IMG/VR virus record: IMGVR_UViG_3300035182_000073
Span: 1 to 21,654 of that record
Strand: one strand, 5' to 3'
Length of the DNA: 21,654 nt
Source: a virus
Position 1 is the first letter of the stretch; every line of letters starts with the position of its first letter. Below, in pieces: positions 3,698-21,654 of this stretch. The notes below the pieces were generated by a model. The model ran no database searches. It had not been told where the DNA came from and saw nothing but the letters and a program-made list of their open reading frames with translations. A program made the translations under genes and the position numbers.

Positions 3698-4551
3698 TAA
3701 TTAAGTTTCTCCGTAAAAAAAGATCCATACATTCCACCCATACCTGCACTTAAATGCAATATGCTACTATTTGGATATCTATCTAAACATAGGCATAACT
3801 CTACACCTGTAGAGCTTCCCATAGTGTGTCCTATTTCTTGTTTAAAGCTAAGTGTATTACAACCTGGATACGCTTTATTAATAGCCACTAATTCTACTCT
3901 ATTTGACTCTGTATTGGTATCATGCATCTTAATATAATCTATTGGCAGACCTTTAGTAATAACATTGCTATACCCTTCTTCACATACATCTATTAGAGTA
4001 CTAGCAATAGCGTATTTATTAACTATATTAGATATTTTGCATATACTAGCTTCAGTTTGTTTAGAAGACACATGAAATATACTAGCACCAAAACCAACAT
4101 CAAATGCTTTACCTAAAACACCTACTTGGATAAAAGCTTGTTTCACTAATTCAGCAGTACCATTATCTACGTTAATTATAATAGCATCTGTAAGCTTGCC
4201 AGATTCAAACAGGTATTTAACCCATTCTAAAGTAATGATTAAGGAACTACAAGCAGATCCATCTGTGCTTAACCAATCAGTGGCATTTAGCTGTTTAGCC
4301 CATTTACCTGCTACTATCTGTGCTTGTTGCATAAAAGATACTCTAGCACTTTCTTTTCTAGTAGAGGATAAATATGTATCATCAGTACCTGTCCAAGTAG
4401 TATTACCTGAAGCAAGTAAAGTACCTACTCTATCTCCCGCAGGAGTATACTTAAAATTTGAAACTAACTTATTAACTGTATAAGTTAATGAAGATGCACT
4501 AGTACAAGATTCTAAGAGATCCAAAGTATAAGAATAGGAGTTAAGATACAT
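3697..4551 (-). CDS. Compact beta-ketoacyl synthase (thiolase-fold condensing enzyme)
   Basis: The 284-residue product looks like a shortened FabF/KS-type enzyme, which joins an acyl thioester to a malonyl-type unit carried on ACP. The motifs occur in KS order. The nucleophile Cys101 lies in D-G-S-A-C-S-S. The first His, H210, lies in M-H-D-T-N-T, aligning with the family H-G-T-G-T. Lys237 and the second His, H242, lie in K-Q-E-I-G-H-T-M-G, with the family's five-residue Lys-to-His spacing. A C-terminal glycine loop (G270-G276, A-G-M-G-G-M-Y-G-S) aligns with FabF G-F-G-G-T-N-G. So the catalytic triad is complete although the protein is about 130 residues shorter than FabF (~410). The missing parts appear to be N-terminal and in loops that include dimer and cap regions. 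It overlaps the ACP gene by 11 bases and the portal start by one. A chain-length-factor-like or inactive role is unlikely given the intact triad, but the substrate is unknown. Confidence 0.85.
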   Translation of the reverse strand: MYLNSYSYTLDLLESCTSASSLTYTVNKLVSNFKYTPAGDRVGTLLASGNTTWTGTDDTYLSSTRKESARVSFMQQAQIVAGKWAKQLNATDWLSTDGSACSSLIITLEWVKYLFESGKLTDAIIINVDNGTAELVKQAFIQVGVLGKAFDVGFGASIFHVSSKQTEASICKISNIVNKYAIASTLIDVCEEGYSNVITKGLPIDYIKMHDTNTESNRVELVAINKAYPGCNTLSFKQEIGHTMGSSTGVELCLCLDRYPNSSILHLSAGMGGMYGSFFTEKLN

Positions 4552-4852
4552 TAATACTTACTCCACTATTGTTATATTTATTAATCCAAACAACTAAATC
4601 CATAACTGTTAATTGTACTTTAGGTCCTTCTACATCTGGGAAATAACCAGGCATAGTAGCATCACCAGGCATATTAAAATAATTACCTAACCCAGCTAAA
4701 GTTAATGTAGTGTCTAAACTGTCTAAGTTAATATCTTTTAGTTTAGAATTAACAGAATAATTACTAAAATCTAAATTCAACCCTGTAGATTCATTCTCAA
4801 TAGTTTCTTTTAGTGTATCTAAAAATTCTTGTAAAGAGATTTCTTTATGCAT
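4541..4852 (-). CDS. Acyl carrier protein
   Basis: This 103-residue protein has the pattern of an acyl carrier protein, a small four-helix protein that carries acyl chains on a phosphopantetheine arm. The attachment motif is L-D-S-L-D (43-47), with Ser45 as the modified residue, preceded by a strand/turn resembling the AcpP lead-in. Helix II follows (T48-F59), and a final helix beginning L-T-V-M-D-L (81-86) matches helix IV of AcpP. A ~20-residue Gly/Pro-containing loop (about 60-79) is longer than in E. coli AcpP (78 residues). The gene lies between the GNAT-like and ketoacyl synthase genes, with an AAGG-type ribosome binding site and an 11-base overlap with the latter. No phosphopantetheinyl transferase is visible here, so the host enzyme would have to modify it. 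Confidence 0.85.
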   Translation of the reverse strand: MHKEISLQEFLDTLKETIENESTGLNLDFSNYSVNSKLKDINLDSLDTTLTLAGLGNYFNMPGDATMPGYFPDVEGPKVQLTVMDLVVWINKYNNSGVSINVS

Positions 4853-4857
4853 TGCTA

Positions 4858-5394
4858 CTACCTTCGTATTATAAAATCTACTTTGTTATTATCATCTTTA
4901 TCGAAGTATACCATAATATCAGATGTATCAAGTTCATTTATTGTAGTACCTTCTTGTAACTTAACTATATCAAATGTATCTACAAAACCTTTTCTAGCAT
5001 CTACTACTTTTAAACAATATACATTTATACTTGCTAAAAAGTTTTTGAGCTTCATAAATATATCATGAGCTACTACGTTATCAGATACCCAAATAGTATT
5101 GCATATAAAACAAGGTATTGGTCCATTATAGGTCATAGAACTACTTATATTATAAATAAAAGCAGCGACTAACTCTGATTCTTTATACACAGATAAGATT
5201 TGATACTGGTTACTAAGGATGTATTTTACATACATATCTATATTAATTTTAATAATATCTACAGTAATAGTTGCATTCATTTTATTCATAGCAAGCTTAA
5301 GCTTATCTAGGATATTAGTTATCCCTACAGCACCATAATCTGAAGCAATACCATAAGTAAATGTGTAGTCTTCTTCAACATATTTTTTAAGCAT
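4858..5394 (-). CDS. Uncharacterised protein, possibly GNAT-fold acyltransferase
   Basis: A 178-residue soluble protein without signal peptide or membrane segment. From about 70 to 115 the strand-rich pattern (S-V-Y-K-E-S-E-L-V-A-A-F-I-Y, then a strand and a helix) resembles the central sheet of GNAT N-acyltransferases. The usual acyl-CoA pyrophosphate loop (Q/R-x-x-G-x-G/A) is not evident, so the fold call is weak. The conserved Arg/Trp/Asp residues of LuxI-type acyl-homoserine lactone synthases are not evident either. It starts five bases after an AAGAG motif, directly behind the holin gene, and is followed by the ACP gene after five bases. That position makes an acyl-ACP-using transferase an attractive idea, but it is inference from context. 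Confidence 0.6.
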   Translation of the reverse strand: MLKKYVEEDYTFTYGIASDYGAVGITNILDKLKLAMNKMNATITVDIIKINIDMYVKYILSNQYQILSVYKESELVAAFIYNISSSMTYNGPIPCFICNTIWVSDNVVAHDIFMKLKNFLASINVYCLKVVDARKGFVDTFDIVKLQEGTTINELDTSDIMVYFDKDDNNKVDFIIRR

Positions 5395-5402
5395 AGATAC
5401 TC

Positions 5403-5912
5403 TTATTGTTTAGCTTTTAGTAACAATTCGTTTTTAGCAGCACTACTAGAACTAGAACCATAATAATAAGCTAGTATAGTAGTCCAGCCACCGCCTAAAG
5501 CCCCTAGCATAACTAGTAAAGCATCACCACCTTTCTCTGGCACACCGTACTGTAACATGTAACTAAGAACACCAAAGTAGCCGATTGTAACTACAGCAGC
5601 TAGAAGTTTTGGTGTCCAATCTTTTACGGACATTTCTCGCTCACGAGCAGACTTACGATCATCAGCATCTATACGTGCTAGATCAATACCTAATTCATCT
5701 GCCCTAGCTTTTGCAGCTATTTCTGCTAACTTAATTTTTGTTAAGCTTTCATCACTAAATACATCGCCTTCTTTAGCATTTATTACACTATTAGCTTTAT
5801 CTTCATCACCATCAAAAGCATCAATTAAGGCCTTTGTTGCAATACCTAAAGCAGGAGTACCTAGTAGCCCTACTAAAGTAGGAGCAATCGTCTTTAAAAA
5901 CTCTGGCATCAC
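5403..5912 (-). CDS. Holin of the three-transmembrane type
   Basis: A 169-residue membrane protein. Hydrophobic segments are visible at about 10-30, 102-121 and 130-150. They are separated by a charged helix (about 55-98) rich in Ala, Asp, Arg and Lys. The C-terminus has a Tyr-Tyr-Tyr-Gly-Ser-Ser-Ser-rich tail after the last segment, which matches the 3-TM holin family (Pfam Holin_3TMs type) where an aromatic-Gly-Ser motif follows the third helix. Holins make the inner-membrane lesion that times lysis. The start overlaps the endolysin gene by four bases (ATGA), as in lysis cassettes. Confidence 0.8.
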   Translation of the reverse strand: MMPEFLKTIAPTLVGLLGTPALGIATKALIDAFDGDEDKANSVINAKEGDVFSDESLTKIKLAEIAAKARADELGIDLARIDADDRKSAREREMSVKDWTPKLLAAVVTIGYFGVLSYMLQYGVPEKGGDALLVMLGALGGGWTTILAYYYGSSSSSAAKNELLLKAKQ

Positions 5913-6346
5913 ACTATTCCTTTTACATAGGTTGTTGGCTTACCTGGCGTAAATACTGCTGTGTACAATTCTGCACGTGGTTGTGAACCTGATGGAGCTA
6001 CTTGAACGTGTACCCAAGTAGGTTCACTAATTGCTTTATCATAAGGCAATCCAGTGTGTGAAATAGCAATAGCTAATTCAGACGGTGTCATACCAGGTAC
6101 ATGAATATCGGCAGCAAGTCCTAATTGGTGTGTACTGTTATTAGTACCACCTACTTTAGCATTAACTTCTGGAGAACGATATCCACTTGTTACAAGAATA
6201 GGCTTCTGTAAATAATTACGTAAGGGTTCTAGAAGGGTATTACATAAACGTGTGAGATTCTCGATAACTTCTTCATCAGGAGTATTATCTAATCCTGTAT
6301 TAGTTACTGTTAATTCTTCTAATGTGAAATGTTCTGATAGCTGCAT
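5909..6346 (-). CDS. Endolysin, M15-family L-alanyl-D-glutamate-type peptidase
   Basis: A 145-residue single-domain zinc peptidase that should cut the peptide stem of peptidoglycan at lysis. The family signature is clear: S-G-Y-R-S-P-E-V-N (54-62), then G-G-T-N-N-S-T-H (66-73), G-L-A-A-D-I-H (76-82) and W-V-H-V (111-114). The predicted zinc ligands are His73, Asp80 and His113. The length matches phage M15 endolysins. There is no signal peptide or wall-binding domain, so export would depend on the holin encoded next to it. A GGTGG purine-rich stretch lies six bases before the ATG. Confidence 0.9.
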   Translation of the reverse strand: MQLSEHFTLEELTVTNTGLDNTPDEEVIENLTRLCNTLLEPLRNYLQKPILVTSGYRSPEVNAKVGGTNNSTHQLGLAADIHVPGMTPSELAIAISHTGLPYDKAISEPTWVHVQVAPSGSQPRAELYTAVFTPGKPTTYVKGIV

Positions 6347-6349
6347 ACT

Positions 6350-6382
6350 TTACCACCAATAAGTTAATATAATTTGTGACAT
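6350..6382 (-). CDS. Possible 10-residue micro-ORF between the two lysis genes
   Basis: An ATG overlaps the stop of the upstream coiled-coil membrane gene as TAATG and opens a ten-codon frame (M-S-Q-I-I-L-T-Y-W-W) ending just before the endolysin. A strong GGAGG lies nine bases upstream, but it is also the coding sequence of the upstream protein's Gly-Gly-Gly tail, so it may be coincidental. If translated, the frame would couple the two lysis genes. Nothing else supports it. Confidence 0.2.
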   Translation of the reverse strand: MSQIILTYWW

Positions 6383-6666
6383 TACGAGCCACCTCCGAGA
6401 ATATTTAGTACTTTAATACCATATCCAGACATCATGAAGCTGATAACACCAACACCGCCTAAGATATACTTAACTGCACTACTGACTGTATTGGTTAATT
6501 CTTGAACTGCCTTAGTTAAAGCATCAACATCTCCGCGAAGATCCCCATGCTTTTCAGAAAGTCCATTGATACGGTTATCTATACTTTGCTTCAATAGGTC
6601 AAACTCACCCTTTAGTTGTAGGTAGTTCACATCAGTGATGCGTCTAGTAAATGATTCTTCTGCCAC
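6382..6666 (-). CDS. Membrane-anchored coiled-coil protein, candidate second holin (XhlA-like)
   Basis: A 94-residue protein with a heptad-like charged N-terminal half (about 15-62) and one hydrophobic segment near the C-terminus (about 66-84), ending in a Gly-rich tail. That arrangement resembles hemolysin XhlA-type phage lysis proteins. It lies directly upstream of the endolysin and a 3-TM holin, so it probably acts in lysis as a holin, pinholin or accessory. The start is a GTG, chosen because AGAGG sits seven bases upstream. A spanin is less likely because there is no lipobox. Confidence 0.6.
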   Translation of the reverse strand: MAEESFTRRITDVNYLQLKGEFDLLKQSIDNRINGLSEKHGDLRGDVDALTKAVQELTNTVSSAVKYILGGVGVISFMMSGYGIKVLNILGGGS

Positions 6667-8615: not shown

Positions 8616-11201
8616 CTATGCTAAAAAGTTTCTATCAATAATTTGTTGAATCGGTAAACTCGTGTCTGCTGTGCTCAAGTTGTAATTTCTGATGCTAGTA
8701 AAAGGAACATACCCCTGCTTATACACTCTAATATCTACTAATCCAGTATTAGAATACACATAGTTATATGTACTGGTTGGGTTACTATCTACATTAACAC
8801 GTTCATTTGTTGTCCCTGCATCAAGAATAACTATATCACTATTAGGGACTAACCCAGTTAAAGTTAAAGTAATAACATCTAGTGGATATTGATAATCTTG
8901 TGCTGACGCTGTACTTACTGTAGTCATATACACGGAAGTAATTGCTGACGTATTTGCAGTAGAGGTAGTTATCTTCAGCTTCAGCTTATGACCTTTACTA
9001 GCATCAAGAGTCAAAGCATTCAAAGCAGTACCTAGGGTTGTAGCAGTATAGTTTGCAGTAGTCATTGTAGACCAACCAGCACCATTATTTAAATCAACAG
9101 CATAGTTATAGTTATAGTTAGTTGCAGTACCACCTGCCATTACTAAAGCACTATTAGCATATTGAGTATGCCCTAACAAGTAGTTTGGCATTGTAAATGT
9201 AACGCTTTGACCAACAGTCGGCATATACAACCCACCAGCAGATGTAAATGCTGCACCGCCTGTTAGAGATACTTGACTCGCAGTACTTGCTGTTGGCTCA
9301 TTCATCATTATTGCTATGCGACCAGCAGTAGTAGATGTAAAGCAATCAAACCAATGTGTACCATAAACAGATACCTGCGCTGTTAAAGCACCAACGCCAC
9401 CCATACCTTTTCTTGTTTGGTTTAGCATGAACATTACATCTGTATTATCTGCGTAGTCACCAAAGACATTTTCTTCTGTAAAGTTGATGCAAGAGTTATC
9501 ACCTGTTGAAATACCTAAGCGAGTATTGCTTGCGTAAACTCTTTGTATTTTGAAATTTGAGCAGTTAGTGTATGCAGCGTAAATATAGCCACATGCATTT
9601 GTTGTACCTAATGATAAGGGTGCTGTTCTTGTCCCTATGTTTCTCAATTTTATGCTAGAACACCCAGCATTTGCACTGAGTAATGCAGAATATGGTTGGT
9701 TATTTGTAACAGGTAATGATAGCCCACTAAATACGCAGTTCTTAACAGATGCACTTAAATACCATACAGATGTAGCATAAGTAGTTACTGTTGTACCTGA
9801 TACTCCACCAATAAATATAGTGTTATTACATACTACAGCTTCACATGAACTTAAGTTATATCCAGCTTCTATGATAACTGGACTATTAAATGTACAGTTA
9901 GTCATACGAGTACCAAGAATTGCATACACAGAGGCATTTGCCTGAATAGTATTTGCTCTAAATGTACAGTTATTAAAGGTGAATCCAGTAATATCTTGCA
10001 GTACTGTAGTATTTGCACCAGAAGCAGCAAGAGATACCCTAGCAAATACACAATCAGACATAGTACCACCAGCATAGCAATATGTCATTGTAAGACCTGG
10101 AGTCAACAGTGCAGTAGTTGGTTTATTACCTACGCCTACTTTTGACCATGATATTGGCGATGCTATCTCATCAAGGTAAATAGCATCTACGAATCCACTA
10201 TTTGATAGAGCAACCGAGTAAGGTTGTGTAAGTGATAAGTACCATTCCATGTTACATTTATCGATATTTACAACACCACCACCAGTAGATGTAAAGTCGT
10301 ATCTTGTTGCTAATGTAGCATTTGGAATAACAACAGCATTTCTTGCTGAAGTTGTACAGTTACAGAAAAATACGTTACCCACAACAACTGCAAGACCAGA
10401 AGGTGGTACATACCCATTGGCTGCAGAACCAGAGTTACCAATACGCACTAAACCAGTGTTATCAATCCAGACTACTTTACCTCTTTCTGGCTCAGTTCCT
10501 GTAGTTGTGGTAGTGCCAGCATTAGCATAAAACTCATAGTCACCAGCTCCAGCAGTCTTCTCAATAAAAACTCCAGCAACGTGCCTAAGTGTACCATTAT
10601 TAGGTATCTGTAAAGTTTGGTTAGCTGTGCCGTTAGTAGTACCAACAGGATACCAAGCACCGTAAACGTTAAATGACCCTAATCTATTAGCATTAACTGT
10701 AGCTGCTTCATCACCAAGGATCTCTAAGAATCCTACGGTACTTGGTCCTGTAGCATTTGCTGTAACACCAGATAATGTTAATGCACCTGATGTGTACTCT
10801 GTACCATTCCATTGTTTAATCATTAGCCAGCCAGTAGTTGGCATAGTGCCACCGTTTACAAGTGGTGCAGCAGTTAATGAGCTATACACGCACATTAGTA
10901 ACCCACTAGAATTTCCTTGAGTAACTGTAGAATTTAGTGCAGGTATAGTACCACTACCAGTATCAAATGGAATTAATCTTATACTTCTACCATCAATATT
11001 ACATGTACCGCCTAATGTAGCAGAAATAGTAATAGTACCCATTGAAGTTGCGGCAGTAGCACTTGAGTTATTATTATTTAATCCAAATCTACTATGCTGG
11101 TCGATGATAAGTGTACCACCGTTAATATTGTATATATCACCGCCAGCTTTACTAGTTAGAGCATCAATATTCTGTGTTGTTGTAATGGTATAAGTTGCCA
11201 T
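8616..11201 (-). CDS. Large beta-rich tail fibre (parallel beta-helix-like)
   Basis: An 861-residue protein dominated by Ser, Thr, Gly, Asn and Val. From about residue 270 to 650 it has recurring short strands with N-C or C-N-N type turns (for example M-T-N-C-T-F-N-S and F-N-N-C-T-F-R-A), the look of a right-handed parallel beta-helix with Asn/Cys ladders, common in phage tailspikes. No clear catalytic motif is seen, so a depolymerase activity is possible but not shown. The N-terminus has a strand-rich capping region opening with a Thr-rich stretch (residues 3-10). The last ~90 residues form a likely beta-sandwich. It has an AAAGG ribosome binding site and lies just after the collagen-like gene. 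Confidence 0.72.
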   Translation of the reverse strand: MATYTITTTQNIDALTSKAGGDIYNINGGTLIIDQHSRFGLNNNNSSATAATSMGTITISATLGGTCNIDGRSIRLIPFDTGSGTIPALNSTVTQGNSSGLLMCVYSSLTAAPLVNGGTMPTTGWLMIKQWNGTEYTSGALTLSGVTANATGPSTVGFLEILGDEAATVNANRLGSFNVYGAWYPVGTTNGTANQTLQIPNNGTLRHVAGVFIEKTAGAGDYEFYANAGTTTTTGTEPERGKVVWIDNTGLVRIGNSGSAANGYVPPSGLAVVVGNVFFCNCTTSARNAVVIPNATLATRYDFTSTGGGVVNIDKCNMEWYLSLTQPYSVALSNSGFVDAIYLDEIASPISWSKVGVGNKPTTALLTPGLTMTYCYAGGTMSDCVFARVSLAASGANTTVLQDITGFTFNNCTFRANTIQANASVYAILGTRMTNCTFNSPVIIEAGYNLSSCEAVVCNNTIFIGGVSGTTVTTYATSVWYLSASVKNCVFSGLSLPVTNNQPYSALLSANAGCSSIKLRNIGTRTAPLSLGTTNACGYIYAAYTNCSNFKIQRVYASNTRLGISTGDNSCINFTEENVFGDYADNTDVMFMLNQTRKGMGGVGALTAQVSVYGTHWFDCFTSTTAGRIAIMMNEPTASTASQVSLTGGAAFTSAGGLYMPTVGQSVTFTMPNYLLGHTQYANSALVMAGGTATNYNYNYAVDLNNGAGWSTMTTANYTATTLGTALNALTLDASKGHKLKLKITTSTANTSAITSVYMTTVSTASAQDYQYPLDVITLTLTGLVPNSDIVILDAGTTNERVNVDSNPTSTYNYVYSNTGLVDIRVYKQGYVPFTSIRNYNLSTADTSLPIQQIIDRNFLA

Positions 11202-11216
11202 TTATGCTGACCTTTA

Positions 11217-11654
11217 TCAAGTATTTACTACACTAACAAGAGTATTACCTACGTAATTTAAAGTTCTTGTTTCGTTAATAGAATTTTTAGTATAAGTTAC
11301 TTTTACTAACTTATCGCCTGAATACGTAAAATTTCTAAAAGAGCCATCTTCATAGAGTATCTCAATCAACTTACCATTACTATAAGTAAAACTAGCATCT
11401 AATGGAGGAGGTGCAGCACTATCCCCCTTGTCACCTTTGTCACCTTTGTCACCTTTAGGACCTTGAGAACCAATAAGACTTGAAGTAACTATTATATTTG
11501 TATTACCTACCAGTATAGAGGTTTTAGCAGTATCCAGTAGACTTATTTTAGTAGGATATTCTGTAGTGTACACTTTAGTATTATTTGTACTGACAACTAA
11601 ACTGACATTACTTTCTAAATGAACTACTGAAGTAAAGCTAAGTAAATCACTCAT
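11217..11654 (-). CDS. Collagen-like virion protein with C-terminal YD-type repeats
   Basis: A 145-residue protein with three parts. Residues 1-62 form a strand-rich head. Residues 65-78 are a perfect Gly-X-Y run (G-P-K then G-D-K three times). Residues 88-143 hold three spaced copies of a Y-x-G-x-x-L-V/I-x-V/I motif. Collagen-like triplets in phage proteins trimerise short rods in fibres. The coding DNA contains three tandem copies of a nine-base unit. The gene overlaps the upstream gene's stop by four bases. Fibre or baseplate accessory is the likely role. Confidence 0.7.
   Translation of the reverse strand: MSDLLSFTSVVHLESNVSLVVSTNNTKVYTTEYPTKISLLDTAKTSILVGNTNIIVTSSLIGSQGPKGDKGDKGDKGDSAAPPPLDASFTYSNGKLIEILYEDGSFRNFTYSGDKLVKVTYTKNSINETRTLNYVGNTLVSVVNT
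11430..11456 (-). repeat. Three tandem 9-bp repeats encoding G-D-K triplets
   Basis: Three exact copies of a nine-base unit (GTCACCTTT on the plus strand) fill 27 bases inside the collagen-like gene. They read as G-D-K triplets on the minus strand. Perfect short tandem repeats can gain or lose units by slippage without a frameshift, so rod length may vary among related phages. Confidence 0.85.
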
Positions 11655-11965
11655 ATTGTTACAGACGCTACAGTATAAATACTAAAAGGAGTCGTGATGA
11701 TAGTTCTACCATCAGACAACGTGTATTGAATATCCTGTGAGAGTTTAGCTACAGGCCAACTTGAAGTATCGTTTACTCGCATAGTAAATTTACCTGCTGC
11801 AAAATCTACTACAGTTATTACACAGTTTGCTATAAGTTTATTAGTAGCATCCCTAATCTGACTTTTAATAGTAATGTTTGTAATGTCCACAGGCACATTT
11901 TGAGCATCTGTGTATTGACACTGTAACTCAAAAGTACTGCCTATTCTATGTGTAATTATTTCCAT
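11651..11965 (-). CDS. Small fibre/baseplate-associated protein, Ig-like or BppU-N-like
   Basis: A 104-residue beta-rich protein. The motif order (strand, then Q-Y-T-D-A near 17-21, I-T-N-I-T-I-K-S-Q-I-R-D near 28-39, A-G-K-F-T-M-R near 56-62, then Q-Y-T-L-S-D-G near 79-85) is that of the small Ig-like domain found at the start of many phage receptor-binding and upper-baseplate proteins. No catalytic residues. It probably sits where the fibre meets the tail. Its ribosome binding site is weak: the best AAGG lies about 13 bases upstream. It follows an approximately 106-base gap that holds the hairpin at 12027-12053. Confidence 0.6.
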   Translation of the reverse strand: MEIITHRIGSTFELQCQYTDAQNVPVDITNITIKSQIRDATNKLIANCVITVVDFAAGKFTMRVNDTSSWPVAKLSQDIQYTLSDGRTIITTPFSIYTVASVTI

Positions 11966-12026
11966 AATTATTTATTAACCTTACTAAATAGTATTTTTAT
12001 CTCAGTTCAACCCAAGGTATAAGTAT

Positions 12027-12053
12027 AGAAGTACTGTTATTAGTAGTACTTCT
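12027..12053 (-). other. Nine-base-pair intercistronic hairpin
   Basis: A perfect nine-base-pair inverted repeat (AGAAGTACT and its complement) encloses a nine-base loop, in the largest intergenic gap of the window (11966-12071). An outer CTCAG/CTGAG pairing (12001-12005 and 12055-12059) could lengthen it into a longer imperfect stem. No T-tract follows it in the minus direction, so it is not a simple intrinsic terminator. RNA processing, attenuation or a regulatory binding site are options. I see no ORF in the gap. Confidence 0.5.
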
Positions 12054-12071
12054 TCTGAGTTATCTCTACAA

Positions 12072-12341
12072 TCACTTATAAACTTTACAAGGTTTAAGTG
12101 AGTTAGTTTGAATAACATCAGGCATACTGCCTTTACCCTGTGTATTTATATTTGCAATTATATCAAAATCTTTAGGGATACCTGGATATAATCTAGAATT
12201 AGGTAATCTTACCCATATCCTATTAGTATTATTAAAAGATGTCTGAGTTATATTATTATTATCTAACACACTTGTAGTAACATACTGAATTACTATAGGT
12301 ATAGATGTAAAAAATGGATTAGGATCCTTGTTCATATTCAC
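12072..12341 (-). CDS. Small uncharacterised protein after the spike gene
   Basis: An 89-residue protein. It contains two strand-like blocks (S-I-P-I-V-I-Q-Y at 13-20; I-W-V-R-L-P at 42-47), a Pro-rich middle and no membrane segment. The first codon may be a GTG at 12341 or an ATG at 12335 in the same frame. A purine-rich AGGTG precedes the ATG. It overlaps the last ~20 bases of the GH114-like spike gene, so it is likely translated with it. A chaperone or connector of the spike is conceivable, but not shown. Confidence 0.55.
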   Translation of the reverse strand: MNMNKDPNPFFTSIPIVIQYVTTSVLDNNNITQTSFNNTNRIWVRLPNSRLYPGIPKDFDIIANINTQGKGSMPDVIQTNSLKPCKVYK

Positions 12342-15300
12342 CTACTTTTGTAAATAAATTAGTATTTATTCTTAAGTTAGTTAAGCTGATTGGTCTAAAA
12401 GGTAAAACATTATTCAACAAAACATTAGCAGTAGCCGATAAGAATCCATCCTGATAATCCGCTATTGTATTTGCTTCCCTTATTGCATCACCAGAAGAGT
12501 CATCAGCAGCATAATTTAAAGATAATACATCAAATACATGATTTTGTCTTAGTCTTTTTAGCTGTGTAATTAAACCTTGATTATAAGCAATAGCAGCAGG
12601 ATCTGTGATTGTAAAGTATTGTCCTGTATCCCAATTGTATTCAGATCGTATACTCTCTGCCATAACATAATTAATGTATTTAACAGAATTATCCAGAATG
12701 GTGAATCCCCTATTAGAGCAGATTTCCTTAGTAGGCCAACTTTTACGCACTTTGCTTATAAGGCTTACCATACCATTTTGGTAATTTTCGGAAGGAAATA
12801 CATCCACACTATCGATAGTATCCATAAAGACACCATCCGCATTTGGTGAAAGATAAGTAAACGTTACAGTTAATGTGTCACCCGCTTTTAGTGTTAACCC
12901 AGATGCAGCAGATTCAACCACAAATGTACCTAGTTTGGTATTATAACTATAATCCAGATGCTGTATCAAAGTAACATTATTAAACTTAATTACTATTGGT
13001 GCATCAGGATCAACAGGAAAATAGCCTTGTCTACCATCAGGGTATTGGGCACTAGGAGATTCATTAATATATGGAACTCGAAAACCTAATCCACTATTAG
13101 CGCCACCGCCTGAATCTACAGAAATTAGTGTAGCTGTAAAGGTTACTGGGTATTGTCTAGGACCGAATATGATTGGTAAATAAAATTTTAATATCCTATC
13201 GTGCCAATAACTACTTCCTGCATTAATATAACTAGAACCCCAAACACCATTTTGATCTGGAAAGTTTACAGTTGCAACTGAGAAGTCTTGACCCCAACCT
13301 GCACCACCTTCATAAGCAGGGCACTTATGATTATTAGGGGTATATTTAGGGCAGGAAGCATTACTACATGCTGCCATAGCATCTCTTTTCCAGTAATTAG
13401 TTGAGTTGTACCCTCCTCCACAATTACCTCCTGCGTTATAAGAAACATACCCATTAACAGTATCGTAGGTACAGACTTTTGAACATCGTCCTAAACCAGA
13501 AAAATACTCACCTCTACTTAGACTACAAGTTTTTGTACCGTATCTAGCATTATCATGAGTACATTCACTAGTCTCTGCAAAAGTGTCATTATCTTTACAG
13601 TAGTAGCTAGCATACCCTCCTGGACCTGTATTACCTACATCAGGACCTGCTGTAGAAACGCTCCAAGGTTCTACATTAGTATTTGCAAAATCATATAATT
13701 TAGTATTTACTGCATCCTCTTCACCAAAAGATATATATAATATAACTTTACAGCCAGCTACATGCAGAGCATCTACTTTACTATTTGATGTAGCATATGG
13801 ATCTGTGACTACTAGATCATAAGTACTTAATTCTTCATCAAAACCACTAACATAACAAATATTATATGAAGGAAATCTAGCATAGATATCTATAGAAGTT
13901 TTTAAGGCTTGTTCATACGAACTCATAGCTGGTATAGTTAGATCAGTAGTTTTACTAGACAGGTTAACAATACCAATAGAAGCTTTACCAGCAATTATAT
14001 AGGGCAATATATTGGAATACTCACAAGGTGTATAATTAGGTATATGCACTAAATTTGCATTAACTGTAATATTTTCTACAACATTAGTAAATGTAGAGGC
14101 ATATTCATATCTAATACCTGAAAACACAATGTACTTACTTGATGTATTTCTTACCTGTATGGTACATACACTTGATCCTAAATCTCCCACATAAATATCT
14201 TCAAAATATGGTGAAGGATCTTTAGTAGCATTACATGTTAAAGATGCATCTTTAGAGAATAGAACTCCATTCTTATAGACAGTAAAATTACCCCAACCCC
14301 AATCTTTTTGAACTCTAATAGTTAACTTGCCTTTAGCTGAAAATGAAAATTTAGCACTGGAGGCATTACTATAATAACGCTGCTCACTATAATTAGTATC
14401 AGAATTCCAAGCACCTGTATAGGTAACCTGCCCTGAATTTAGAGGTACACTAGAATAGTTAGTATGTACGATACTACCATTAGGGTCTGGATACTCAGCA
14501 GATAGTTGAAAATTTATAACTTGTGCATTAAGTGTTGTTATATATTGGGGTACAGCACTAATGCTGGCTGTGAGAGCAGCATTATTCAATAAAGTATTAG
14601 ACGCAGGAAGTGTTAAAGTATTCACAGGATAAGGCTGTACACTTACTGCTTTTCCAGAAACAGAATCAAATCCAAAGTTTAAACAGTCTATAAATGGGTT
14701 ACTTGTTAAAGCTATATTTGCATTATAAATAGTATTTGATGTTAGATTTTGTATTTTTAGATTTATATTATTATGAGATGTACACAGGTTATATAACTGT
14801 CTAGCATGTTCCGTAGCGAGTTGGCTATCCCCATTCCCGTCCAAATTCATATAAGGATTTATGTACAAAGGTGTGGGTAAATTTAAAACTAGACTACTAT
14901 TGGTATTATCTGCGTATTTTATACACGTAAACACAAATGGAGCAGTAACACTGTTACTAATATATAGTGTAAGTGTATGCGGTCCTGGTGATAAATTATC
15001 TGCTAATACATAATCATAGTATCCAGTGTTGACATTAACAGTTTCATTTGAGGATACTACATCTAATGGGTTAAGAACATTAGAAATTGTTGATGGTTTT
15101 ACGCCATCAATATACACATCTGCATCTCCCCAACCATAAGATATACCAACTCTAATAATACACGTAGTGCCTGTAAAGTTTACAGTAGCTTTACCTTTAG
15201 TACAGAAAGTCCGTCTCTCTTGAACATTTGCAGCTAAAACAGGGTCTACATCAATAATCCAATCTGAGTTAACTACGCTAGTAGTGTTTGGGTAGCTAAA

Positions 15301-15417
15301 TGTTGCAGGGAAATTTATTCCATCTATATTTATATACTTTAGTCTTAAGTTAATAAAATCTTGCCCATCTCTGCATTTGTCACTATAGACAGTTAACTTA
15401 TCTAAATAACTACTCAT
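12319..15417 (-). CDS. Tail spike with an interrupted GH114-like glycosidase barrel
   Basis: A 1032-residue spike. Two similar beta-sandwich modules sit in the first half (about 31-168 and 309-440), each carrying I-R-V then G-W-G-x-x-x-V-Y-x-x-G. From about 517 the pattern is that of GH114, a TIM-barrel family that includes endo-alpha-1,4-polygalactosaminidase: V-V-T-D-P-Y (536-541), then G-C-K-V-I-L-Y-I-S-F-G-E-E (555-567). After an insertion comes A-D-G-V-F-M-D-T-I-D (860-869), like the family D-G-V-F/L-D-T-V-D motif; P895, the Y918-A920 region and the L967-A970 strand complete the barrel. Two insertions (about 600-700, Cys-rich, and 740-855, beta-rich) split it. Candidate acidic residues are D539, E566, D861 and D866. 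The enzyme call comes from motifs only; activity is inference. An endosialidase-like or pectate-lyase-like alternative does not fit the motifs. Confidence 0.72.
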   Translation of the reverse strand: MSSYLDKLTVYSDKCRDGQDFINLRLKYINIDGINFPATFSYPNTTSVVNSDWIIDVDPVLAANVQERRTFCTKGKATVNFTGTTCIIRVGISYGWGDADVYIDGVKPSTISNVLNPLDVVSSNETVNVNTGYYDYVLADNLSPGPHTLTLYISNSVTAPFVFTCIKYADNTNSSLVLNLPTPLYINPYMNLDGNGDSQLATEHARQLYNLCTSHNNINLKIQNLTSNTIYNANIALTSNPFIDCLNFGFDSVSGKAVSVQPYPVNTLTLPASNTLLNNAALTASISAVPQYITTLNAQVINFQLSAEYPDPNGSIVHTNYSSVPLNSGQVTYTGAWNSDTNYSEQRYYSNASSAKFSFSAKGKLTIRVQKDWGWGNFTVYKNGVLFSKDASLTCNATKDPSPYFEDIYVGDLGSSVCTIQVRNTSSKYIVFSGIRYEYASTFTNVVENITVNANLVHIPNYTPCEYSNILPYIIAGKASIGIVNLSSKTTDLTIPAMSSYEQALKTSIDIYARFPSYNICYVSGFDEELSTYDLVVTDPYATSNSKVDALHVAGCKVILYISFGEEDAVNTKLYDFANTNVEPWSVSTAGPDVGNTGPGGYASYYCKDNDTFAETSECTHDNARYGTKTCSLSRGEYFSGLGRCSKVCTYDTVNGYVSYNAGGNCGGGYNSTNYWKRDAMAACSNASCPKYTPNNHKCPAYEGGAGWGQDFSVATVNFPDQNGVWGSSYINAGSSYWHDRILKFYLPIIFGPRQYPVTFTATLISVDSGGGANSGLGFRVPYINESPSAQYPDGRQGYFPVDPDAPIVIKFNNVTLIQHLDYSYNTKLGTFVVESAASGLTLKAGDTLTVTFTYLSPNADGVFMDTIDSVDVFPSENYQNGMVSLISKVRKSWPTKEICSNRGFTILDNSVKYINYVMAESIRSEYNWDTGQYFTITDPAAIAYNQGLITQLKRLRQNHVFDVLSLNYAADDSSGDAIREANTIADYQDGFLSATANVLLNNVLPFRPISLTNLRINTNLFTKVGEYEQGS

Positions 15418-16810: not shown

Positions 16811-17698
16811 TTATCGATTAATTTGAGGTAGAGACACTACTTTACGTTTGTACTTAAAATACATTTCATCATTATTAGCATCATAGATATACTGTTTATA
16901 CACTTTTTTATAATCAGTTTGTTTATCAAAATTAGCATTTTGTCTGTAATTATTTATGCTCCATACTTGGAAAGGTATACTATCAAAGAAGTTAAAAGCA
17001 ACACTTCCAGTACCAAAGAAAGCCCTATTAGAAATTCTATCTAACACATCATGATATTTAAATACAAAATTCATACCCCATAAAAATTCACCTAAAGTTA
17101 GGTTATCAGTATTGACCAAAGTTTTTATAACGCTATCAAATAAACCATACTCATTGGTATTTAATACCTCATTATAAGGCATACGTCTTTGTTGATCAGT
17201 GTAGTTTAACATTTGCACACTACCTACAAGTTGATCCCCAATCTCTCCAGTAATTACTAACTTATTGTCTAAGAATCCTTCAGGCATTTCCCTAATGAAT
17301 TCATAACTTAGAAGTTTAGGGAACATTCTAGCACCTGTTGTTGCTACGTCTTTCTGTATATGATCAGCAAGCATAGGATACTCTTTAACAGATGATAAAG
17401 ACATACCAACACTAAACTCAATTCCAGCAGCAACTAAGGCATAGAATACTAGAGTAGAATCTATACCACCACTCCAGAGTAATACTACATCTTTAAGCGG
17501 ATGTGCTTTAATTTTCTCAATCTGCATATCAATACATTCTTGAAAAGTAGTATTTGCATATGTAGCTTTATCTTCAGAAGTAGGGACAGTATTTACAGTA
17601 TTGACTATACCTTCTAAAGTACCTGTTCTATCGCAGGGTATTACACCAAAAAACCTAAAAAATCTGATAGAGTCTGGTGAATTTTCAAAACCTAACAT
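16811..17698 (-). CDS. Asparagine-synthetase-like PP-loop ATPase without a glutaminase domain
   Basis: A 295-residue protein from the AsnB synthetase/PP-loop superfamily, which adenylates a carboxylate and lets an amine attack it. The PP-loop is L-W-S-G-G-I-D-S (74-81 from the ATG used here). The second family motif is I-T-G-E-I-G-D-Q-L-V-G-S (149-160), matching the AsnB G-E-G-x-D-E-x-x-G block except Q for E. The family's N-terminal glutaminase domain with Cys at position 2 is absent; only ~75 residues precede the PP-loop. I chose the ATG at 17698 over one 33 bases upstream because AGGAA sits seven bases before it and the longer frame would overlap the cupin gene. Possible roles are amide formation or amino-acid ligation of an acyl or sugar substrate. 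A tRNA-thiolation or ExsB-like PP-loop enzyme is less likely, because of the AsnB-type second motif. Confidence 0.75.
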   Translation of the reverse strand: MLGFENSPDSIRFFRFFGVIPCDRTGTLEGIVNTVNTVPTSEDKATYANTTFQECIDMQIEKIKAHPLKDVVLLWSGGIDSTLVFYALVAAGIEFSVGMSLSSVKEYPMLADHIQKDVATTGARMFPKLLSYEFIREMPEGFLDNKLVITGEIGDQLVGSVQMLNYTDQQRRMPYNEVLNTNEYGLFDSVIKTLVNTDNLTLGEFLWGMNFVFKYHDVLDRISNRAFFGTGSVAFNFFDSIPFQVWSINNYRQNANFDKQTDYKKVYKQYIYDANNDEMYFKYKRKVVSLPQINR

Positions 17699-17705
17699 AT
17701 AAATA

Positions 17706-17710
17706 TTCCT
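17706..17710 (-). promoter_or_regulatory. Ribosome binding site that sets the PP-loop gene start
   Basis: AGGAA lies seven bases upstream of the ATG at 17698 and overlaps the end region of the cupin gene. No comparable motif precedes the in-frame ATG at 17731, so the shorter start is preferred. Confidence 0.6.
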
Positions 17711-17711
17711 A

Positions 17712-18317
17712 TTAAACTTCAAACGTACCATTACGCATTGGGTGATTATTTTCCAGTACTGTAGAACTATACACGTGCATAGGTACTACAAGTAAGTAGT
17801 CATCTTCAGTAACAAAATGGTGTGGTGTCATCTTATCAAGTACAAGTACATCACCAGGATTTAGTGTAACTTTTAACTCATCTGACATACCTTGAACGCT
17901 ATACCCACTTCCACCAATAACTCTAACTACTCTAGTAGTTGAATGTATATGATGAGCTTGTTCTTGAGTTCCTTTAGGTAGATATAACAACTGTAATGTA
18001 GGATCCCCATGTCTTACAGGAGGGAATACTTGTTGTGAACTGCAACCATTAATGTAAGGTAAATTAACAATACTCTCATAGCTAGATGTTTTACTTTCAC
18101 ACTGGTATCCTCTAACTAATACAGCTAGAGAATCACTTTTAATCTTAGTACCACCTCTGTGTATACTAGCATTAGTATCATTAATTATCCATAAAGAATC
18201 ACCTAAAGGGATATCTACTTCATGTTCACCTACGTATACAGTATAAGCATATAAATCATATTTATTTGATTGAAGTATTGTTGTATCACCCGCAGGTACT
18301 TTTATAATATTAAACAT
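17712..18317 (-). CDS. Cupin-fold protein
   Basis: A 201-residue protein. Its second half (about 107-182) has a cupin barrel: G-T-Q-E-Q-A-H-H-I-H (116-125) gives the H-x-H metal-ligand pair (H123 and H125), a Gly turn follows at G135-G138, and N-P-G-D-V (153-157) with H166/H167 forms cupin motif 2. The usual Glu of motif 1 is not obvious. The first half (about 20-75) has a similar strand spacing and may be a degenerate second cupin. Cupins serve as isomerases, oxygenases or sugar epimerases, or as binding proteins, so the substrate cannot be read. It lies 12 bases after the 95-residue gene and very near the PP-loop gene, which suggests shared function. Confidence 0.75.
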   Translation of the reverse strand: MFNIIKVPAGDTTILQSNKYDLYAYTVYVGEHEVDIPLGDSLWIINDTNASIHRGGTKIKSDSLAVLVRGYQCESKTSSYESIVNLPYINGCSSQQVFPPVRHGDPTLQLLYLPKGTQEQAHHIHSTTRVVRVIGGSGYSVQGMSDELKVTLNPGDVLVLDKMTPHHFVTEDDYLLVVPMHVYSSTVLENNHPMRNGTFEV

Positions 18318-18633: not shown

Positions 18634-20217
18634 CTACACAATATACGAGCTATAAGCTCCACCAGTCAACTCAGGCTCATCTTCAAACATATCACCTGTC
18701 TTTGCGTTTACAGTCTCTTCTGAGGGCTTCCAAGGGGTTAGTTTAGCTAACATAGACACTGTGTCAATAGCATCATCGTGCTTACTTTTAAACCCTTTAG
18801 GGGAAGCATAACGCAATTCTTGTAGTAATTCTAGCACTAAAGGATGTTCACGCATATCTTCTGGTAACCATATCTTTTTAGTTTTAAACCAAGGGAGTAC
18901 TACGTTGAATCTTTCCATCTTATTAGTAGCAGGTCTAATGCCTGCTTTACCACTGTTATTCTCACTAGCAAGAGTAAAGTAAACATTCCTAGCAACCATC
19001 TGATCGTAGATCCAAGAGACAAAACCTCCTTGTTGACCAGATACTTCAACACCTACTTGCTGAGGTTTATACATCTGGACCAGTCTAAATAGATCATCAA
19101 CGTTCTTATCCATTAACTGTCTTTTACATATACCATCTACCAGTAACCAATCACCATTATTAGTATATGCCCATACACTTATAACACTATAGTCACTAGC
19201 TTTACTTTCACTAGTAGCAAAGTCAGTAGTAATATAGAAGTTATACCTTTCTTTATTCTGCTGTACTTTCTTAGAATCATACCACACTAAGTCATGATCA
19301 AAGACTAACCTATCATCATCACTAATAATTCTTAGCATCAACTCTTGCATGAAGCTATCTACTTTTCCTGCAAGGACTGCCTTATCATATTGATCTTTAA
19401 CATACTGATATGTAAATCGATCTTCCCATGCTCCTCTAAACTCTCCTGGAGCACACGGGAAAGTGTTGCATACTGGAAATACGTTAACGTACCACGCACC
19501 AGATTCAGCAGCTTTATATAAAGGGTCGTTACTGTTGAACGGAGTACCGTTCCAAATAATTTTACGTCTTGTAGGATGTAGTGCATAATCAATAGCCTTA
19601 TATACAGTATCCTCGATACTGGCTGTAATTGTAGGGCTTCTAGCGCCTTCGTCAGAAACCAAGTCATCTAATAAAGCAAAGTTAGGTCTCTTACCCATTT
19701 CCTTACTACCACGAACACCAGTTAATGCACCGTACCCTTTGATAATAAGCTTCTTGCCATCTTTATTAGTAAACTCCCATCGAATATCAGTAAACTTAGC
19801 TTCAGGGACATATTGCTGTAAAAACTCACTATTCTCCCATCTAAACTCTAAGTTTTTCCTCATATTCTTTACACCATTCTCTATACTATCACTTACATAT
19901 AGAGCTAGATCTACTTTACCGAATCCATATAATTCACCATAAGTAGCCAAGTATAAAAACATATACTCACCAAATACAGTAGTCTTACCTGAACCACGGA
20001 ATAGCATATTAAGTGTATTAGCTTTACCACCAGCAATCTGATCCAGCATCTTATAATGGATAATAGGAGTTAAGTTCTCTTCACCATCAGTACCATTAAC
20101 CAACTTAATAAAGTTAACAAACTCTAATGAGAACTCACTAGGGACGTAATTAACATCATTACCGTAATCAACTTGATTAAGCCAAGCTTCTACAGATTGC
20201 TTTATCGGTTTATCCAT
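18634..20217 (-). CDS. terL: Terminase large subunit (packaging ATPase/nuclease)
   Basis: A 527-residue motor protein that packages phage DNA and cuts it. The ATPase half has Walker A F-R-G-S-G-K-T-T (73-80), Walker B F-A-L-L-D-D-L (180-186) and a coupling motif W-N-G-T-P-F (222-227). The nuclease half has a first Asp in T-T-D-F-A-T (D332), an acidic residue in V-G-V-E-V-S-G (E391), and the C-terminal Asp cluster K-H-D-D-A-I-D (479-485). Size and order are complete. It starts on a TAATG overlap with the ferritin gene, so its translation is likely coupled to that gene; the best AAGGA lies 12 bases upstream. Confidence 0.95.
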   Translation of the reverse strand: MDKPIKQSVEAWLNQVDYGNDVNYVPSEFSLEFVNFIKLVNGTDGEENLTPIIHYKMLDQIAGGKANTLNMLFRGSGKTTVFGEYMFLYLATYGELYGFGKVDLALYVSDSIENGVKNMRKNLEFRWENSEFLQQYVPEAKFTDIRWEFTNKDGKKLIIKGYGALTGVRGSKEMGKRPNFALLDDLVSDEGARSPTITASIEDTVYKAIDYALHPTRRKIIWNGTPFNSNDPLYKAAESGAWYVNVFPVCNTFPCAPGEFRGAWEDRFTYQYVKDQYDKAVLAGKVDSFMQELMLRIISDDDRLVFDHDLVWYDSKKVQQNKERYNFYITTDFATSESKASDYSVISVWAYTNNGDWLLVDGICKRQLMDKNVDDLFRLVQMYKPQQVGVEVSGQQGGFVSWIYDQMVARNVYFTLASENNSGKAGIRPATNKMERFNVVLPWFKTKKIWLPEDMREHPLVLELLQELRYASPKGFKSKHDDAIDTVSMLAKLTPWKPSEETVNAKTGDMFEDEPELTGGAYSSYIV

Positions 20218-20810
20218 TAATCATCAGTATCCTTAGAATCATTATCACCATCATCGTCATCATCATCATCATCAGTATCAGCGATCTTTCTATATGCATC
20301 TAACATATACTCATCTAATTCAATTCGTAAAGAACCTTTGAACCAATCAGGAGTAGCACTATCCGAGAGTTTCATTTGATTAATTTTACCTATTAATCCA
20401 ATAAATAAACTCTCTTCTTCTCTTTGTTCAGACAAGAACCAGTTAATTAGTTTAGAACTTACATAATCATCAGCCTCATTAGCAGCTTCTTTAATAGCTA
20501 CAATAAGTTTAGTAGTATTCTGCTCTAAAGCTAATGAAGCATATACAGTATCTTCTAGGTTTTCGATAGTACCAATATCAAACTTATTCAAAGTAAAAGC
20601 TTCAGGCATATACCCAAGATCCAACAAATAACTGATGAATCTATCTCTATGATTCATCTCACCTTTAGCCTGTATAGTGAACAATTTAGCAGCACCATCA
20701 TACCCATTAAATGAACACCAGTTAGCTAGTTCAATGTAAATTAAGTTATTACTATTTTCTACACTAATCTGTCTTTGTATTAACTTTAATACTGTGTTAT
20801 CTATCTTCAT
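20217..20810 (-). CDS. Ferritin with intact ferroxidase centre and poly-Asp tail
   Basis: A 197-residue ferritin of the bacterial FtnA type, which oxidises Fe(II) and stores iron in a 24-subunit cage. Aligning by eye with E. coli FtnA (165 residues) gives the ferroxidase ligands E18, Y25, E51, H54, E96, Q129 and E132. The fingerprints are A-N-W-C-S (29-33), G-Y-D-G-A-A-K-L-F (36-44), G-E-M-N-H (50-54) and S-E-Q-R-E-E-E (127-133). The one difference at this centre is G50 where FtnA has E49 (third iron site). A loose acidic tail (D180 to D197, 13 of 18 residues Asp) follows the cage helices. The gene sits between the small-terminase region and terL, with an AGGA about nine bases upstream and a one-base overlap with terL. 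Rubrerythrin or bacterioferritin are less likely: there is no rubredoxin Cys motif and the layout is FtnA-like. Confidence 0.9.
   Translation of the reverse strand: MKIDNTVLKLIQRQISVENSNNLIYIELANWCSFNGYDGAAKLFTIQAKGEMNHRDRFISYLLDLGYMPEAFTLNKFDIGTIENLEDTVYASLALEQNTTKLIVAIKEAANEADDYVSSKLINWFLSEQREEESLFIGLIGKINQMKLSDSATPDWFKGSLRIELDEYMLDAYRKIADTDDDDDDDDGDNDSKDTDD
20250..20273 (-). repeat. GAT triplet microsatellite encoding eight Asp
   Basis: Eight consecutive Asp codons (seven GAT and one GAC, seen as ATC/GTC units on the plus strand) encode D180-D187 of the ferritin. Such a run may vary in copy number by slippage. Confidence 0.8.
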
Positions 20811-20836
20811 TACATCATTCCTATAAACACTGACAA

Positions 20837-21187
20837 TTAAACCAAGGGGTACAATAGATCAAGATTCTCTCTATTAATTATCATTATTGTACCATTCTCA
20901 GGTACATCAACATAACCAATACCTAAGTATAAACCTACTAAATCTTCTTTATAATTTACCAATATCATATTACATTTAGCAACCTTACCACCTAAACCCA
21001 ACTCTTCTACCATAGGCATATACACTGAACCATTAGGGTTATATTTCATAATTTCAATAACATCATCCAGGTCATCTAAAGTAATTTCTTTAAATATGCC
21101 CTTACTAGTTTTAGAAGCTATATCTCTAATTTCTCCTGTATTACCGAAGTTATTTAGAAATAAATTAACAGCTTTATGTTTTAGCAT
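20837..21187 (-). CDS. Small uncharacterised protein between small terminase and ferritin
   Basis: A 116-residue protein. Residues 34-50 (I-T-L-D-D-L-D-D-V-I-E-I-M) read as a helix like the opening of GNAT proteins. A strand block (about 75-95, I-L-V-N-Y-K-E-D-L-V-G-L-Y-L-G) recalls the lysine/acid-rich strand before the cofactor loop in that family, but the protein is too short for a full GNAT domain. The start is on a TAATG junction with the small terminase gene. I do not assign a function. Confidence 0.55.
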   Translation of the reverse strand: MLKHKAVNLFLNNFGNTGEIRDIASKTSKGIFKEITLDDLDDVIEIMKYNPNGSVYMPMVEELGLGGKVAKCNMILVNYKEDLVGLYLGIGYVDVPENGTIMIINRENLDLLYPLV

Positions 21188-21654
21188 TACTCTTGTTCCT
21201 CACATGTACCTTGGATAATTTTACTATGTGCTACATCAATTACACTCATAGCGCCAGTACTAATAGCAGTTAATTGAGCTTGAGCTAATGCTCTAGTAGC
21301 TTCTCTTAATTCATCAATACTCTTACTCTCTTTAACACCCATCTCAATCTCAATTTTCCTAGTCTCAGGTTGTTTTAGATGAGTTAATAAACTATTAGCA
21401 GCATCACTTCTAACCTTCTCACTAACAGCATTTCTCATCAGTTCTGCTTGTACATTAATAGCCTCTTGATAGATGTCTTGGTTCAATACATGAGTAGGTA
21501 TTAAACTCTGTTCCATAATTAGATTAACTAACTTGTTCTTATTATAAGCACTAGCAAATCCACTAATATGATTAGCAGAAGCACCTTCTTGAAGTAGTCT
21601 AGCATATCTATCTGGGAATGTACTACGGTAACTATCACTAATACCTCTACCCAT
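21187..21654 (-). CDS. Terminase small subunit-like protein (start at the window edge)
   Basis: A 155-residue, mostly helical, charged protein. The order is an N-terminal helical part (F-P-D-R-Y-A-R-L-L-Q-E-G), then a segment T-H-V-L-N-Q-D-I-Y-Q-E, a Leu-rich helix, then K-E-S-K-S-I-D-E-L-R (108-117) and a helical C-terminus with A-L-A-Q-A-Q. This overall pattern is common among small terminase subunits that recognise the packaging site, and its place upstream of the large terminase fits. The ATG lies at the last bases of the window, so an upstream start cannot be excluded. Confidence 0.6.
   Translation of the reverse strand: MGRGISDSYRSTFPDRYARLLQEGASANHISGFASAYNKNKLVNLIMEQSLIPTHVLNQDIYQEAINVQAELMRNAVSEKVRSDAANSLLTHLKQPETRKIEIEMGVKESKSIDELREATRALAQAQLTAISTGAMSVIDVAHSKIIQGTCEEQE

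Follow-up and report, generated by a model that had tools for sequence, protein, structure and literature searches.

The window, as we call the whole stretch of 21,654 nt analysed here (a 21.7 kb linear virus record, itself a metagenomic contig), has one long open frame in the interval 20217–20810. It lies on the minus strand and runs for 197 codons from an ATG start; read on the plus strand, this interval is broken by stops throughout. The frame encodes a ferritin, set among phage packaging genes in the following arrangement.

18634–20217, minus strand: large terminase subunit gene (TerL), directly downstream of the ferritin gene (phrog_38, 1.2e-95; 62–65% identical to Schitoviridae TerL)
20217–20234, minus strand: final five codons and stop codon of the ferritin gene (KDTDD*), matching the terminase leader of the empty site in a sister phage record, L009
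20217–20810, minus strand: ferritin gene, 197 aa (PF00210, FtnA match, AlphaFold2 model)
20220–20267, minus strand: acidic C-terminal tail of the ferritin, residues 182–197, modelled with low confidence and encoded in part by GAT repeats
20268–20348, minus strand: predicted fifth (E) helix of the ferritin, residues 155–181 (AlphaFold2, alignments)
20811–20836, minus strand: ferritin leader, 26 nt, with the putative ribosome-binding site AGGA (read from the sequence)
20837–21187, minus strand: gene for 116 aa of no known family, forming the upstream flank of the ferritin gene (78% identical in L008 and L009)
21187–21654, minus strand: N4 small-terminase-like gene, cut by the contig end (phrog_2109, 4.2e-60; 93% identical in L009)

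A first-pass annotation of the DNA had placed a ferritin at 20217–20810, with no strand given, between small-terminase-like and large-terminase genes in an operon of late proteins. The ferritin is confirmed, on the minus strand; its position between the two terminase genes also stands, except that one extra gene, for 116 aa, intervenes on the small-terminase side. The small-terminase-like gene has a weak TerS match as well (phrog_2538, 0.003). At the other flank, the TerL start overlaps the ferritin stop codon (TAATG), and a putative TerL ribosome-binding site, AAGGA, lies inside the last ferritin codons at 20217–20234. No terminator-like site was found on the minus strand beside the ferritin gene. 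From this tight packing, the stop/start overlap and the lack of a terminator-like site there, we infer that the 116-aa gene, the ferritin gene and TerL are co-transcribed late, in support of the proposed late-operon position.

The 197-aa protein matches the Pfam family PF00210 (Ferritin) at E 1.2e-21 (77.6 bits, cut-off 24.5), and its best solved-structure match by sequence is Escherichia coli FtnA (E 1.4e-19, residues 8–145), a match that improves to 5.6e-25 when the query is a two-row profile combining the window protein with its closest relative, from contig L070. These E-values, with the predicted fold, rule out chance similarity. Against the E. coli-type FtnA equivalog model (NCBIfam NF007638) it scores 75.3 bits, where the cut-off is 178, and is thus homologous to that group but outside it. 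By sequence and predicted fold, then, the protein is an FtnA-type (non-haem) ferritin. Identity as a bacterioferritin was rejected (TIGR00754, 27.8 bits against a cut-off of 125.6; the B site is Q129/E132, with no His), as was identity as a Dps. Dps proteins bind iron between subunits and lack the fifth helix that is present in 24-subunit ferritins, whereas here an E helix is predicted and the intra-subunit ligands are kept. With bacterial FtnA proteins (E. coli 1eum/4xgs, Vibrio cholerae 3qz3, Helicobacter pylori 3bve, Campylobacter jejuni 1krq) the window ferritin shares the four-helix bundle plus E helix, the ligands of the dinuclear site, and Tyr25, Trp124 and Q129. It differs from them in being phage-borne and only ~22–30% identical, in having Gly in place of E49, in a longer D–E loop and E helix, and in its acidic tail.

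In E. coli FtnA the dinuclear ferroxidase ligands are E17, E50, H53, E94, Q127 and E130, and the corresponding set in the window ferritin—E18, E51, H54, E96, Q129 and E132—is complete. The first five of these had been named from the sequence as an intact ferroxidase centre, a claim to be abandoned were they lost in homologues; the assignment was correct, and none is lost, all five being invariant across 17 aligned ferritins (the window protein and 16 relatives). Alignments with up to 16 other ferritins show further invariant positions at Y25, E128, E131, E132 and E133. The residue equivalent to FtnA E49 is G50 in the window ferritin and Asp in the L070 protein. We take E49 to belong to a third iron site (site C; ligands E49, E126, E129 and E130), an accessory feature that is not needed in every ferritin. 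Three of the four third-site ligands are kept (E128, E131, E132), and the glycine at the fourth means that turnover or mineralisation may differ from that of FtnA.

An AlphaFold2 model of the monomer, built from 17 aligned sequences, has a mean pLDDT of 92.6 and a pTM of 0.85, with five predicted helices (residues 5–34, 38–64, 85–112, 116–146 and 155–181) mostly above a pLDDT of 90. Compared with solved structures, it gives Z scores of 23.3 for V. cholerae ferritin, 23.0 for H. pylori ferritin and 22.2–22.8 for E. coli FtnA; superposition yields an rmsd of 1.5–1.7 over 161–168 residues, and the likeness to bacterial ferritins spans residues 2–177. The subunit is therefore predicted, from a monomer model, to have the five-helix fold of the 24-mer type. 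A structure unable to form the cage had been put forward as grounds for doubting the ferritin, and to the extent that a monomer can speak to assembly the modelled fold fits a ferritin. Counted against simple cage assembly is the C-terminus: the E helix is longer than that of FtnA and is followed by the acidic tail. Residues 182–197 are probably disordered, judging from the model, and 14 of the last 25 residues are Asp or Glu. The C-terminus of ferritins lies near the fourfold axis and can point into the cavity, and by analogy the acidic tail may lie inside the cage. Its poly-Asp run is encoded by GAT repeats and has no counterpart in the L070 ferritin, so the run may be neutral.

The contig is that of an N4-like (Schitoviridae-type) phage, as judged from its sequence: the 62–65% identity of TerL to N4-like terminases extends over at least 94% of its length, and the portal protein belongs to phrog_1216 (3.6e-235). 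This supports the phage origin claimed for the ferritin. L009, the 73.9 kb sister record, runs colinear with the window at 57–94% identity gene by gene (TerL 92%, portal 92%, tail genes 57–94%); in a region outside the window fragment it encodes a giant virion RNA polymerase of 3300 residues (phrog_2206, 2.9e-223), and it also carries single-strand binding, major head, NrdA, NrdB and ThyX genes.

Several other minus-strand genes of the window merit description. Three genes between the lysis genes and portal (3697–5394) are all 75–85% conserved in L009: the first encodes a 284-aa ketosynthase-like protein (PF02801, 1e-4) whose motifs ACSS, HDTNT and GHTMGSSTG resemble a Cys-His-His triad, the second a protein of 103 aa whose DSL motif is acyl-carrier-like (TIGR00517, 0.038 only), and the third a 178-aa protein with no assigned family. 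A ketosynthase and carrier pair would be unusual in a phage. The lysis cassette at 5403–6666 includes an M15 peptidase and a 94-aa gene 53% identical to one in L070; L009 has another holin, endolysin and Rz in the same place. At 12319–15417 lies a gene (phrog_37372) whose 1032-aa product weakly resembles GH114 over one stretch (3.4e-4) and is probably an enzyme of the tail or spike, and at 16811–18317 a cupin (PF07883, 2.8e-7) adjoins a PP-loop protein (SGGIDS), both of which are found in L007 and L009 too.

Among the window genes listed, the ferritin and the exchanged lysis cassette are the only differences from L009. A search of related phages at the same locus, as the first-pass annotation had suggested, showed that L009 and a further record, L008, share the gene order—small-terminase-like gene, a gene for 117 aa, terminase—with no ferritin in between, and a PF00210 profile search, which does detect the L070 ferritin, found none elsewhere in L009. 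Downstream, at the junction, the window sequence is AAGGATACTGATGATTAATG and that of L009 GTGGAGACTGATGATTGATG, the latter being the terminase leader. Here the ferritin end, KDTDD*, aligns with untranslated L009 DNA that reads VETDD* in the same frame; from this alignment, the last codons of the ferritin correspond to what is untranslated DNA in the empty site. The simplest reading of these sequences is that one gene was inserted just upstream of the terminase leader and reaches into it; possibly, the ferritin was instead lost in the L009 lineage. The spacing of the two terminase genes in the N4-like loci compared runs from an overlap to several kb of other genes, and a place so varied in length and content is a variable one. 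The ferritin is an accessory gene, gained or lost, with a presence/absence polymorphism at this locus.

Since the window is a linear metagenomic contig, a bacterial ferritin might have been joined to phage DNA by misassembly or host contamination, and a close relative (L007, TerL 97% identical) begins at the terminase start, so that the junction cannot be confirmed from that record. Such an origin is nevertheless very improbable. The sequence on either side belongs to the phage and is colinear with that of L009, the stop codon of the ferritin runs into the start of the terminase, the GC3 of the gene (0.22) matches the base composition of its neighbours (0.16–0.30), and an independent contig, L070, has a relative within an N4-like late region of its own.

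That relative, the nearest found, comes from a second N4-like contig (L070, IMGVR_UViG_3300042143_000004) with the same portal and related head families, and is 51% identical overall and 54% over the best segment. The two ferritins share a phage type and, in the E-helix region, the motif TPxWFKxxLRxEL, present in these two alone among the sequences compared; the FtnA C-terminus is unlike it. They differ in site of insertion—the L070 gene lies between the lysis genes and portal—and in the poly-Asp run. Within L070 itself, the portal gene (10536–13652) contains an apparent intein, residues ~413–775 interrupting the portal match; this insert matches portions of terminase families that probably carry inteins. 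In a tree, the window and L070 ferritins group with 100/100 support; with few cellular sequences included, this places the two N4-like ferritins together and does not speak to their origin. Differences between the two genes stand at 0.58 at third codon positions against 0.30 at second positions, and the greater divergence of third positions is as expected for a constrained protein.

The group is small. PF00210 scored above its cut-off in 1/17 N4-like records searched, namely L070, and searching with a profile built from the two ferritins brought up no further one. The negative searches in the sister and 15 other N4-like records would suit a passenger gene, captured by chance and of no benefit, as would an acidic tail that looks like the product of expanding GAT repeats, joined to the former terminase leader. 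We think this improbable, however, given that the reading frame is intact, that the five named ligands persist in a protein 51% identical to its one near relative, that third positions show the bias just described, and that ferritins recur in unrelated phages.

A search of viral contigs recovered 23 with a ferritin. T4-like large phage contigs (L073–L091), up to 254 kb in length, make up a group apart and carry FtnA-like ferritins at a conserved place; these are ~25–31% identical to the window ferritin, keep the ligands, form a separate clade and differ in having an ordinary GLYxxxK-type C-terminus. The link to T4 comes from an S77 peptidase of the T4 prohead-protease type in 3/5 large records tested and a T4-type RNA ligase near the L075 ferritin. 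The ferritin genes of this group, at about 10001–10504, are oriented opposite to both neighbours. Two contigs were set aside as probable host sequence, L071, with a ferritin identical to that of E. coli (FtnA), and L086, in the record of an apparent isolate; L079 and L092 were placed neither as host nor as phage. A tblastn search of 50,697 phage records for a precedent in isolated phages returned four unannotated records only, two of them faecal fragments marked 'UNVERIFIED' and the other two from S. aureus phages, with the look of host ftnA. As to a cellular donor, a pattern-based scan of bacterial genomes, which detects close relatives only, yielded just two Corynebacterium ferritins (31–35% identity), and the best ferritin identity among plasmid records was 38%. 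It is conceivable, though we hold it only tentatively, that N4-like phages own a distinct ferritin lineage that moves between phages and late-gene sites, its C-terminus (a long E helix, and an acidic tail reaching into the cage) remodelled for iron handling in infected cells.

The view that a viral ferritin would be without precedent is not borne out. A 'putative bacterial non-heme ferritin' of similar fold is recorded in UniProt from an uncultured marine phage (A0A8D9C9X5), ferritin is known in giant viruses (PMC7136201), and an archaeal virus has a bacterioferritin under purifying selection (PMC10904782). The last two have viral iron storage or oxidation in common with the window protein, and belong to other families or hosts. 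Phage Dps proteins, described in Lactobacillus phages (PMC6669764) and 'Gratiaviridae' (PMC8008677), are likewise of the ferritin superfamily, with protection from oxidative damage proposed; the window protein differs from them in its intra-subunit site and E helix. The open-licence literature searched yielded no account of a phage ferritin of the FtnA type, and the main text of a survey of N4-like phages reporting 1,101 metabolic genes does not contain the word 'iron' (PMC10654107). To the viral ferritins already on record the window gene adds a well-documented case, possibly one of a phage-specific lineage.

We consider it probable, from sequence and model, that this is an accessory (cargo, or 'auxiliary metabolic') gene of an N4-like phage, encoding a working FtnA-type ferritin that is transcribed late and cages and stores iron in the infected cell. 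With its gene transcribed along with the late packaging genes, the protein would form a cage of 24 subunits, with Fe(II) oxidised at a dinuclear centre made up of E18, E51, H54, E96, Q129 and E132 and the iron stored as a ferric mineral; cage assembly, ferroxidase activity, co-transcription and benefit are all inferred. The likeliest benefit would be the removal and buffering of labile Fe(II) late in infection, which might spare replicating and packaged DNA some Fenton damage and leave iron at the disposal of iron enzymes. One such iron user, NrdB, is encoded with the class I ribonucleotide reductase genes of the L009 sister, the window being a fragment. No NrdB match was found in the T4-like ferritin carriers tested, and iron supply for ribonucleotide reductase is therefore not a general explanation. 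A role tied to packaging, as had been suggested from the adjacent terminase, is weakened, since the sister packages its DNA without a ferritin at this locus and L070 carries its gene elsewhere, beside the portal; the position next to the terminase looks incidental.

Two other roles were weighed against storage in the infected cell. The ferritin might withhold iron as a takeover factor, locking it up so as to shift Fur regulation or to starve competing phages or host pathways. In several virocells, changes in host iron storage genes do accompany infection (PMC10986025, PMC12282109), but late expression, as judged from gene position, is atypical of takeover factors, and we regard this as unlikely. 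Alternatively, the ferritin might sit in or on the virion, in tail or head, delivering or displaying iron in the manner of a 'ferrojan horse'. Its gene does lie in the late, structural half of the genome, and in Vi01-like phages a ferritin-like protein, assigned by Phyre only, was detected by mass spectrometry (PMC10892097). Those phages, however, showed no dependence on TonB or FeoB (PMC10892097), the sister has the same tail and head genes and no ferritin, and the window protein has no fusion or docking domain save the short acidic tail, whose poly-Asp L070 lacks; a place in the virion seems improbable.

Iron in phage-infected bacteria has been much discussed, mostly by way of tail proteins and host responses. 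To that picture the window adds an intact ferritin in a well-understood type of phage, and the comparisons show ferritins turning up repeatedly, in two or more phage groups that are unrelated. Because nature supplies a sister phage that lacks the gene at this very locus, the use of iron storage to a phage becomes testable by comparison of nearly identical phages.
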